Assembly: GCA_030690405.1 (NCBI GenBank) | Contig: JAUYGU010000126.1 | Span: 1-14,349 of the forward strand | Direction of reading: 5' to 3' | Length of the DNA stretch: 14,349 nucleotides | Source: Dehalococcoidia bacterium | Lineage (GTDB): Bacteria > Chloroflexota > Dehalococcoidia > SM23-28-2 > RBG-16-64-32 | Shown: piece after piece, positions 2,556 to 4,580 of the stretch | Layout of the letters: each line of letters begins with the position of its first letter | How positions within the stretch are numbered: the first letter of the stretch is position 1 | Program-made: the position numbers and the translations under genes | The notes under the pieces: generated by a model | Database searches by the model: none | What the model was told of the DNA's origin: nothing | The model's input: the letters and a program-made list of their open reading frames with translations, nothing else

Positions 2556-2586
2556 AAAAAACCCTTCCGGCATGCCACCGAAAGGG
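2556..2586 (-). terminator. Intrinsic terminator in the panB leader
   Basis: CCCTTTCGG (2586-2578) pairs with CCGGAAGGG (2570-2562) around a 7-nt loop. Six T follow (2561-2556). The stem is 9 bp with one G-U pair. The hairpin lies about 85 nt upstream of the panB start and after a strong promoter, which marks it as a regulatory attenuator rather than the end of the upstream peptidase gene. Confidence 0.85.
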
Positions 2587-2606
2587 CGTAGCCTTCGCCT
2601 ATCTCG

Positions 2607-2639
2607 CCGTCCCGGTCCGCCAAAGGCGGATCCAGGCGG
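2607..2639. repeat. Nested short palindrome inside the panB leader
   Basis: On the plus strand TCCGCC (2616-2621), AAA and GGCGGA (2625-2630) form a perfect palindrome. It is flanked by complementary CCCGG/CCAGG (one wobble pair) and then CCG/CGG. In the leader RNA this makes a long bulged hairpin. TCCGCC-TTT-GGCGGA palindromes are, from memory, dispersed in some bacterial genomes, so this could be an inserted repeat that became a leader stem. Confidence 0.5.
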
Positions 2640-2711
2640 GTGCTGGCCCGAAGAGGCCTGCTCCCTGGCAGGCTGACTGGCTCGCCGCCCTTACGGGTCG
2701 GTGGCAGCGTC

Positions 2712-2757: not shown

Positions 2758-3753
2758 CTAGGCGAGCCACTCCGCCGCCGAGGGGACGCCCGCCAGGCCG
2801 GTGGCCTCCGTCACGGCGCGGAGGACGGCCCGCTCCACAGCGCGAGCGGCCAGCGCGCCCAGCCGGAGCACATCCAGGGGGCCGCCGCCGGCGGCGCCGG
2901 TGGCCAGCGCGAATATCGTGTCGCCGTCCACGGGCGTGTAGACGGGGCGGATGGTGCGGGCGAGGCCGGCCTGGGCCATCACGGCCAGCCGGTAGCAGTC
3001 GGATTTCGTGAGCGCGGCGTTGGTGGCGACGACGCCGATCGTGCTGTTGGGGCCGGCACCGAAAGGCGCGAGCGGGGGCTTCGTCCGGAGGACCTCCAGC
3101 GTATCGGCGAAGCGGCCGTCCTCGCCGCGCGGGCCCGCGACGACGCGGCCGCTCTCCGGGTCGGCGACCTCGCCGAAGCAGTTCACCGCCACCAGCGCGC
3201 CCACCACCAGCCCGTCTTCCGTCCGTTCCACGGCGCTGCCGGCGCCGCCCTTGAGCGCCCTCTCAAGGCCGAGGGCCTTCGCCACGGTGGCGCCCGTTCC
3301 GGCGCCGACGCTCCCCATCGCGGGCGGGGCAGCGGAGGCGGCCTCGCAAGCGGCGTAGCCGGACGCGGCGTCCGGGCGGACGTCGCCGCGGCCCAGGGAC
3401 AGGTCGAAGAGGACGGCGCCGGCGACGATCGGCACGACGCCGCCCGGTGTCGGGAAGCCCTTGCCGCGCTCCTCCAGCCAGCGCATGACGCCGGCTGCGG
3501 CGTCCAAACCGAAGGCGCTGCCGCCGGTGAGGAGGACACCGTGCACCCGCTCCACCAGCGTTCCCGGCCGCAGGAGGTCGGTCTCGCGGGTGCCGGGAGC
3601 GCCGCCGCGCACGTCGGCGGAGGCGACCGCGCCATCCGGGCAGAGCACGACGGTACAGCCGGTCGCCGCCTCCGCGTCCGTCCAGTGACCGACGAGGAGG
3701 CCAACGACAGCGGTTATCGAGTCATTCTGAGCCGTATTCACAGAGCCGTTCAC
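2758..3753 (-). CDS. P1/S58 (DmpA-like) N-terminal-nucleophile aminopeptidase/amidohydrolase
   Basis: The 331-residue protein belongs to the S58 DmpA/P1 family, which includes D-/L-aminopeptidase DmpA, beta-aminopeptidases and nylon oligomer hydrolase. These proteins self-cleave to expose a Ser or Thr nucleophile. Visible motifs are VRGGAPGTRETDLL (about 48-61), LTGGSAFGLDAAAGVMRWLEE (75-95), VPIVAGAVLFDL (107-118), GSVGAGTGATVAK and GPNSTIGVVATNAALTK (234-250). Cleavage is expected between Asn236 and Ser237, leaving Ser237 as nucleophile. There is no signal peptide, so it is probably cytoplasmic. The start is GTG at 3753-3751 with no clear Shine-Dalgarno. A second GTG four codons in is equally possible. 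The natural substrate cannot be told from sequence. The gene lies upstream of the panB promoter on the same strand and diverges from the sortase gene. Confidence 0.93.
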   Translation of the reverse strand: MNGSVNTAQNDSITAVVGLLVGHWTDAEAATGCTVVLCPDGAVASADVRGGAPGTRETDLLRPGTLVERVHGVLLTGGSAFGLDAAAGVMRWLEERGKGFPTPGGVVPIVAGAVLFDLSLGRGDVRPDAASGYAACEAASAAPPAMGSVGAGTGATVAKALGLERALKGGAGSAVERTEDGLVVGALVAVNCFGEVADPESGRVVAGPRGEDGRFADTLEVLRTKPPLAPFGAGPNSTIGVVATNAALTKSDCYRLAVMAQAGLARTIRPVYTPVDGDTIFALATGAAGGGPLDVLRLGALAARAVERAVLRAVTEATGLAGVPSAAEWLA

Positions 3754-3810: not shown

Positions 3811-3827
3811 ATGTGTTGGAGGGTAGG

Positions 3828-4580
3828 TTGGGTCGGATTTCCCTTTCGGCTTTGAGAAACGTTCGCAACCCGCGCCAGCGCCTGTTGCTGGTCGCGGGGG
3901 TTGTTCTGTTCGCGGCGGGCGCCGCCATCCTCGCCGTGGGGCTGGTCGGCTACTTCGACAACGACAAGGCGCTGCCCCCGGAAGTGACGATGGACTTCGC
4001 CGACCTCATCCCTGACCCACCGAAAGGCATCGAGGACGTCGAGGGCCTTCCTGTCTCCATCCCTTACTACAACCCGTACCCCCGCGTTACAGCGCCGCTG
4101 CGCATAGTCGTCGAGAGGATCAAGGTTGACGCGCCGATAGTCGAGCTGGGGCTGGACGGGAACGGCGTGCCGCAGGTGCCTCTGAACGGTCAGGACGTGG
4201 CCTGGTACACCTTTTCGGCCAAGCCGGGCGCAGGCAGCAACGCGGTGTTCGCCGGGCACGTCAACTGGGCCGGCGCTTTGGGCGCATTCGGTAAAATTGA
4301 CAAGCTGGAGAACGGCGATACGGTCCGCCTGATCGCCGACGACGGCCGCGAGTTCACGTACGAGGTGTTCGCCAATTACTACGTGGACCCCTTAGACCCG
4401 GAGTCGCTGAAGGTGATGGCGCCAACGCCAACGGACACGATCACCCTGATCACCTGCGGCGGCACCTGGATCCCCGACCGGAGCGACAGGTTCGGCGGAG
4501 AGTACACGAACCGCACGATAGTCCAGGCCAAACTCGTAGACTCCAGCCTGGCCGTGCCCTCGCAGATCAGCGGCGGCTAG
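3828..4580 (+). CDS. Class F-like sortase, membrane-anchored transpeptidase
   Basis: Sortases are cysteine transpeptidases that cut sorting signals and attach secreted proteins to the cell surface or to one another. The 250-residue protein has a short basic N-terminus and one hydrophobic segment at about residues 19-43, so it is anchored in the membrane with its catalytic domain outside. The catalytic triad is visible: His144 in FAGHVNW, Cys210 in TLITCGG and Arg229 in YTNRTIVQAK. The TCGG surroundings resemble class F (D/E/F-type) enzymes rather than class A. The start is TTG at 3828 because GGAGG (3818-3822) lies 5 nt before it. The GTG at 3813 lies too close to the -10 box. No protein with an LPXTG-like sorting signal is seen in this window. 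The gene converges on the thiolase gene with a 16-bp gap. Confidence 0.9.
   Translation: MGRISLSALRNVRNPRQRLLLVAGVVLFAAGAAILAVGLVGYFDNDKALPPEVTMDFADLIPDPPKGIEDVEGLPVSIPYYNPYPRVTAPLRIVVERIKVDAPIVELGLDGNGVPQVPLNGQDVAWYTFSAKPGAGSNAVFAGHVNWAGALGAFGKIDKLENGDTVRLIADDGREFTYEVFANYYVDPLDPESLKVMAPTPTDTITLITCGGTWIPDRSDRFGGEYTNRTIVQAKLVDSSLAVPSQISGG

Follow-up and report, generated by a model that had tools for sequence, protein, structure and literature searches.

The leader of the panB-panC operon in the 14,349-nt stretch of DNA analyzed here (the window) is, as judged from its sequence, a divergent tandem pan RNA, belonging to a family known since 2010. It is fused to an intrinsic terminator and probably attenuates transcription of this operon, with a switching direction that we infer to be OFF. 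The family features, the covariation, the promoter, the terminator and the complementarity of the strands were read directly from the DNA, while the switching itself, its direction and its signal are considered conditionally below. An earlier note on this DNA had correctly located the parts of the leader on the minus strand: the promoter, the beginning at 2706, a 16-bp stem, the U6 terminator and the 85-nt spacing to panB. Its general picture of a structured panB leader, transcribed from a promoter and combining a terminator with mutually exclusive alternative pairings, was confirmed by the sequence and the folding energies.

All features of the leader lie on the minus strand. A motif scan placed a sigma-70-type promoter with an extended TG (TTGACG-18-TATACT) at 2712–2741, the end of the -10 element being 6 nt away from 2706. 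The tandem, RF01749-like pan RNA (2603–2706, from the matches of RF01749 and of the model R2 described below) consisted of two hairpins and a linker. Hairpin 1 (2679–2706), recognized in the RF01749 alignment and in the alignment of relatives, had bulged A residues at 2698 and 2682 and one A.C mismatch in place of a pair that was A-U in all nine aligned relatives. Hairpin 2 (2607–2639), recognized from the alignments and covariation, had bulged A residues at 2631 and 2610 and was close to the pan consensus, with a C-G pair against U-A in 9 of 9 aligned relatives. Its 3' arm (2607–2617), proposed from the complementarity tests as the antiterminator strand of the class, could pair with the terminator 5' arm at 9 of 11 positions in the window. 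The intrinsic terminator, found by scanning and folding, was a 9-bp stem-loop at 2562–2586 (2586–2578 paired with 2570–2562, including one U-G pair), followed by a U6 tract visible in the sequence at 2556–2561, whose end was separated by 85 nt from the panB ATG (2471; an in-frame GTG is present at 2474). The leader folded better than its shuffled versions (z -3.7, none of 200 being as good). Scanning of the whole window gave promoter-like sites above chance (4 vs. 1.1 expected), while the terminator-like sites in it showed no excess over chance (5 vs. 5.6 expected). A TANNNT box within 14 nt 5' of the motif was found in 127 of 161 loci (counting the window) but in only 60 of 619 control stretches; its position just 5' of hairpin 1 indicates that transcription probably begins with the first base of this hairpin or close to it, in agreement with the start proposed earlier.

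The family assignment had to be made below the formal threshold. Rfam searched at its own cut-offs gave no match in the window, while with permissive filters RF01749 was the sole match on a 451-nt stretch, spanning the full model (1–92) but scoring 24.1 bits against a gathering cut-off of 36.2 (E 0.058). Two further models were built: R1, from the window and nine relatives, and R2, which to avoid circularity was made from 41 sequences that did not include the window, although they had themselves been found with R1. On the window, R2 gave 42.0 bits (E 2.5e-8 in 92 kb) with an alignment spanning 1–88. Five loci from Firmicutes (L040, L035, L031, L027 and L039) scored above the RF01749 cut-off, and R1 matched the same places in all five, some of them weakly (E 6e-5 to 0.07), so that the two models meet at common Firmicutes places; R2 scored four of these accepted members at 24.1–29.2 bits and L040 at 12.9 bits (E 0.28). 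Among 18 genomes chosen from 80 related panB loci, RF01749 matched in nine at E ≤ 10, always 5' of panB, but exceeded the cut-off in only one, indicating that such leaders are easily overlooked. R1 matched 15 of these 18 panB loci at E ≤ 0.005, eight of the fifteen having been part of its seed. Other sub-threshold Rfam matches in the relatives (M23, Twister-sister, ALIL, sR53 and P10) were located elsewhere and look like chance.

The pan motif was described by Weinberg et al. (2010; PMC2864571), in the single paragraph given to it there, as a candidate regulator, with hosts among Chloroflexi, Firmicutes and delta-Proteobacteria. The passages on pan in that paper specify stems that carry two bulged A residues and usually occur as tandem pairs 5' of operons with panB, panC or aspartate decarboxylase, and the window has the same bulged-A stems, the tandem hairpins and panB-panC downstream. 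The earlier note had not recognized a known class in the leader and had considered it unlike the Firmicutes pan motif, which is contradicted by the four diagnostic bulged A residues, the tandem hairpins and the pan operon. A strong Rfam hit had been named there as the result that would remove the novelty: in substance the identity with RF01749 did so, although the Rfam model itself stayed under its cut-off. The window differs from RF01749 by its GC-richness, a longer linker, the A.C mismatch in hairpin 1 and the sub-cut-off score; the latter we take as a limit of the RF01749 model for this clade, since the cut-off is a score set by the curators and not a structural feature. A further difference is the terminator with complementary upstream strands in the window, no terminator being mentioned in the pan passages of PMC2864571. 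In Bacillus methanolicus and Paenibacillus riograndensis pan RNA has been annotated ahead of panB, panC and panD, in the respective passages as annotation only, without a mechanism (PMC4342826, PMC5670726). A search of a literature collection that included few subscription papers found no later account of the pan mechanism or signal.

The closest panB relatives found were from uncultured Chloroflexi, including some Dehalococcoidia, which makes a host of this kind probable. R1 matched 246 of 393 genomes from the class of G007 (the dehalococcoidial genome of locus L007) at E ≤ 0.1 per genome, at which threshold up to about 39 matches could be due to chance; approximately 209 of the 246 were at 1e-4 or better. 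In 100 aligned sequences 99.2% of the pair cells were standard and 10 of 19 pairs showed two-sided changes, while shifting the partner by 1–3 columns left 27.5–51.4% standard pairs; since the model served both to find and to align these sequences, the values are biased toward its structure. None of 500 shuffles, which ignore kinship, reached the observed covariation statistic. Both pan hairpins covaried, and each of the four bulge positions was an A in 162 of 162 rows (alignments A3–A5, one row having AA at one of the positions), the finding model itself carrying those A residues. A 281-base query from the window matched 9 of 25 genomes from the order of G004, the best match (G001, positions 20–208) having 71% identity and, therefore, no closer relative was found in those 25 genomes. 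Against 72,556 plasmid records the leader gave one short match, within panB of Thermomicrobium roseum.

Several loci showed variants of this arrangement. In L008, L011, L013, L017 and L019 the pan-like hairpins had a variant 3' arm of hairpin 2, GGCCGGTACGG, and their terminators differed or none was found, so they perhaps have a distinct expression platform. In two Nitrospina-type genomes (L067 and L069) an R1 match coincided with a sub-cut-off RF01749 match 5' of panB, with no terminator noticed. Nitrospina-type genomes were formerly placed with the delta-Proteobacteria.

A terminator behind the pan hairpins was common in the class: a hairpin with a U-tract occurred within 95 nt downstream in 97 of the 121 loci, compared to 30 of 708 control windows. 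Of the 24 loci in which the scan found none, some have a terminator recognizable by eye, for example L007. The 3' arm of hairpin 2, GACCGAGACGG, was complementary to the terminator 5' arm, the segments best complementary to it having the consensus CCYUYUCGGYY. The mean duplex energy between the two arms was -11.4 kcal/mol, compared to -6.3 when 331 other terminators of the fetched loci were used (kinship ignored, p 8e-34) and -6.6 with shuffled arms. Own and swapped duplexes were similar (-11.4 vs. -11.1 kcal/mol), the hairpin-2 arm being nearly invariant. At least 10 of 11 positions could pair in 36 of the 160 loci, compared to 7 of 623 control stretches; for at least 9 of 11 positions the numbers were 96 loci and 66 control stretches. 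This complementarity means that a hairpin-2 strand, outside the pan fold, can hold the terminator 5' arm.

Terminator-based riboswitches and protein-controlled attenuators place a mutually exclusive terminator and antiterminator 3' of a conserved sensor fold. The window contains, in its sequence, such a terminator and such an antiterminator, but its sensor consists of two simple hairpins and not of a deep aptamer. In the mechanism that we consider probable, the pan hairpins would be stabilized by a sensed end product of the pathway or by a protein reporting on it. A 2022 review of riboswitch ligands notes the lack of a CoA riboswitch. With the hairpins stabilized, the terminator 5' arm would stay free and the U6 terminator would form (OFF), while without stabilization an upstream strand would pair with the terminator 5' arm and allow read-through into panB (ON). 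The 3' arm of hairpin 2 is the most likely antiterminator strand across the class, and in the window the 16-bp pairing with hairpin 1 would provide a second, stronger alternative. The direction would follow from the conserved, covarying fold: because it leaves the terminator free, whatever stabilizes it should shut the operon. The ON polarity of the earlier note is thus not expected, formation of the conserved hairpins freeing the terminator rather than blocking it. An OFF direction would fit the usual behavior of biosynthetic operons, in which the end product shuts off expression.

The folding energies, which leave out transcription kinetics, bear on two alternatives to such an OFF attenuator. 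The first, which we regard as unlikely, is that the pan RNA and the terminator stand side by side, the latter working at a fixed level or under other control and the hairpins acting through protein binding, RNA stability or translation. It agrees with the dimeric protein-binding element suggested in the pan passages of Weinberg et al. (2010; PMC2864571) and with the low stability of the hairpin-2 antiterminator, itself a point against the OFF attenuator, which at the median of the 97 loci was 6.5 kcal/mol less stable than the pan hairpins together with the terminator (+6.5) and was favored before completion of the terminator in 32 of the 97. The sequence of the terminator 5' arm speaks against it: when anchored on the loop, nine of its last ten positions had approximately 0.6–0.9 bits and the innermost 0.3, while the spacer before it had 0.3 bits or less, and this conserved arm was specifically complementary to hairpin 2, which an ordinary terminator would not need. 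The second alternative, considerably less probable, retains the same competition with a reversed logic, in which binding, such as that of a protein opening one of the hairpins, would stabilize the antiterminated fold and turn expression ON. The window would permit this, its unbound optimum being an antiterminated fold (-79.4 kcal/mol) which can retain hairpin 2 (-76.3 when this hairpin is imposed), compared to -75.3 for the OFF fold of pan hairpins and terminator and -66.1, or 9 kcal/mol worse than the OFF fold, for the hairpin-2 antiterminator. However, the bulged A residues and the covarying pairs, which are under the strongest selection, are features of the fold in which the terminator stays free, and the shut-off by product usual for biosynthetic operons is also at odds with a reversed logic.

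The 16-bp stem, regarded in the earlier note as the closing stem of an aptamer, was real but proved to be a property of the window. Its 3' side (2573–2588, from folding and duplex energy) paired with 2706–2698 and 2692–2686 in two segments of 9 and 7 pairs (2706–2698 with 2581–2573 and 2692–2686 with 2588–2582), interrupted by a 5-nt bulge. The duplex energy was -28.6 kcal/mol, which is beyond chance for this terminator arm, none of 5000 shuffles reaching -28. This pairing was the strongest among the 97 loci with a detected terminator, the window included, and it reaches 16 bp owing to extra bases in the terminator loop of the window. Over the 97 loci, hairpin 1 paired with its own terminator no more strongly than with the 331 others (p = 0.15), and the 5' arm of hairpin 1 alone showed no excess pairing with the terminator (p = 0.96). 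A conserved closing stem was, therefore, rejected: the 16-bp stem lacks a class-wide signal and competes with pan hairpin 1. The covariation among relatives which had been suggested as a check was found in the pan hairpins. In the lineage of the window the antiterminator may have shifted from hairpin 2 to hairpin 1, as judged from one sequence. A new riboswitch class working as an ON switch, with an aptamer closed by the 16-bp stem, is thus very improbable, since the stem, although beyond chance here and capable of blocking the terminator, peaks in the window and excludes hairpin 1, while conservation and covariation reside in the two pan hairpins, the class-wide pairing test and the R2 match together largely refuting the proposal.

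As a member of a known RNA family the leader is ordinary in kind, but its regulon is of more interest than the original claim, while the mechanism has become newly testable: the conserved terminator and the complementary hairpin-2 strand make it directly accessible to experiment. In the window the leader is followed by panB (1629–2474, ATG at 2471; TIGR00222 of NCBIfam, 368.9 bits, cut-off 207.55) and panC (669–1565; TIGR00018, 312.3 bits), and a gene for a P1 family (S58) peptidase is located directly upstream (2758–3753; PF03576, 172.1 bits), all on the minus strand. A 15-codon ORF on the same strand, MAKQTAMRQRLGLTW (2486–2533, the peptide read by eye), begins and ends with codons resembling those at the two ends of the SDR gene which precedes panB in L001, L004 and L006. 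The gene order in L001 and L004 was peptidase, leader and panD-SDR-panB-panC, compared to peptidase, leader and panB-panC in the window; together with the SDR-like ends of the ORF this suggests that panD and the interior of the SDR gene have been lost here. The ORF at 2486–2533 looks like a remnant beside the missing panD, either through two deletions or through an assembly fault. A gene at 3813–4580 of the window gave a sub-threshold match to a class F sortase (89.7 bits against a cut-off of 166).

At least one of panB, panC and panD was present in the fetched stretch of 113 of the 121 loci, six others had the S58 peptidase and/or DUF2520 only, and two had neither (L092, and L138, where the contig ends). 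The first gene behind the pan RNA was DUF2520 in 57 loci, the S58 peptidase in 35, panD in 21, panB in four, SDR and panC in one each, and none was found in two. Forty-one further loci included 33 with panB, panC or panD, three with the peptidase or DUF2520 only and five with other genes, one of the latter (L230) being the same place as L092. Some relatives of the S58 peptidase release beta-alanine. A replacement of PanD by this peptidase is not supported generally, as the peptidase and panD occurred within one operon in many loci; panD was present in 12 of 15 genomes searched and absent from G003, G015 and G105, whose assemblies may be incomplete.

The pan RNA copies ahead of other genes count against the OFF attenuator. 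In G068 (L230), G160 (L231) and G203 (L232), which also carry a normal panB, a further pan RNA was located 5' of an FDH-like molybdopterin oxidoreductase gene, the two tested scoring 341–374 bits with TIGR01591 against a cut-off of 666. These RNAs were followed by a terminator-like hairpin with a weak U-tract. In L230 and L231, the two with enough sequence, sfsA-, HMG-CoA synthase- and thiolase-like genes came next, named by NCBIfam in L230 (the HMG-CoA synthase below cut-offs) and by eye in L231.

A different association was found with the Hps-RraA fusion gene. The full-length gene was detected in four of 44 genomes searched, with seven more partial matches, and at E ≤ 1e-60 in two of the 393 class-sample genomes, both among the four: L233 (G256:C52), L234 (G034:C8), L271/L323 (G412:C105) and L284/L321 (G401:C107). 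The two tested, L233 and L234, scored 638.7 and 635.1 bits with NF005442. Hps-RraA was directly behind its own pan RNA in G256, G034 and G412, while in G401 it was the third gene of a pan operon after DUF2520 and panD, in the place of panB, with the contig ending there. On the basis of gene content, Hps-RraA is a candidate replacement of PanB, which would make it a formaldehyde-using, folate-independent ketopantoate synthase; its position behind pan RNAs suggests a possible new route to ketopantoate. A literature search for a link between Hps and ketopantoate found none. The identity of the genes behind pan RNAs (S58 peptidase, DUF2520, Hps-RraA and the FDH-like operon) narrows what the RNA may sense. 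A wider proposal, that the pan RNA is a true switch throughout much of this Chloroflexota class, with the hairpin-2 strand as antiterminator and a regulon that tracks the pantothenate pathway including its Hps-RraA replacement, is offered as a tentative extrapolation and as a whole appears doubtful.

A canonical PanB was absent from the four Hps-RraA assemblies, while PF02548 matched above 250 bits in 35 of the other 40 genomes and at E ≤ 1e-30 in 319 of 393 in the class; for the co-occurrence of Hps-RraA with missing PanB a slightly conservative table gave a Fisher p of 0.0015, but three of the four Hps-RraA genomes belong to a single family and the assemblies may have gaps. G034 and G401 had no PanB match, and in G256 and G412 the match was only a divergent PanB-like paralogue of 149–174 bits, beside purM- and purH-like genes (names by eye) and located at 1377–2189 in L319 and at 1169–1969 in L320.
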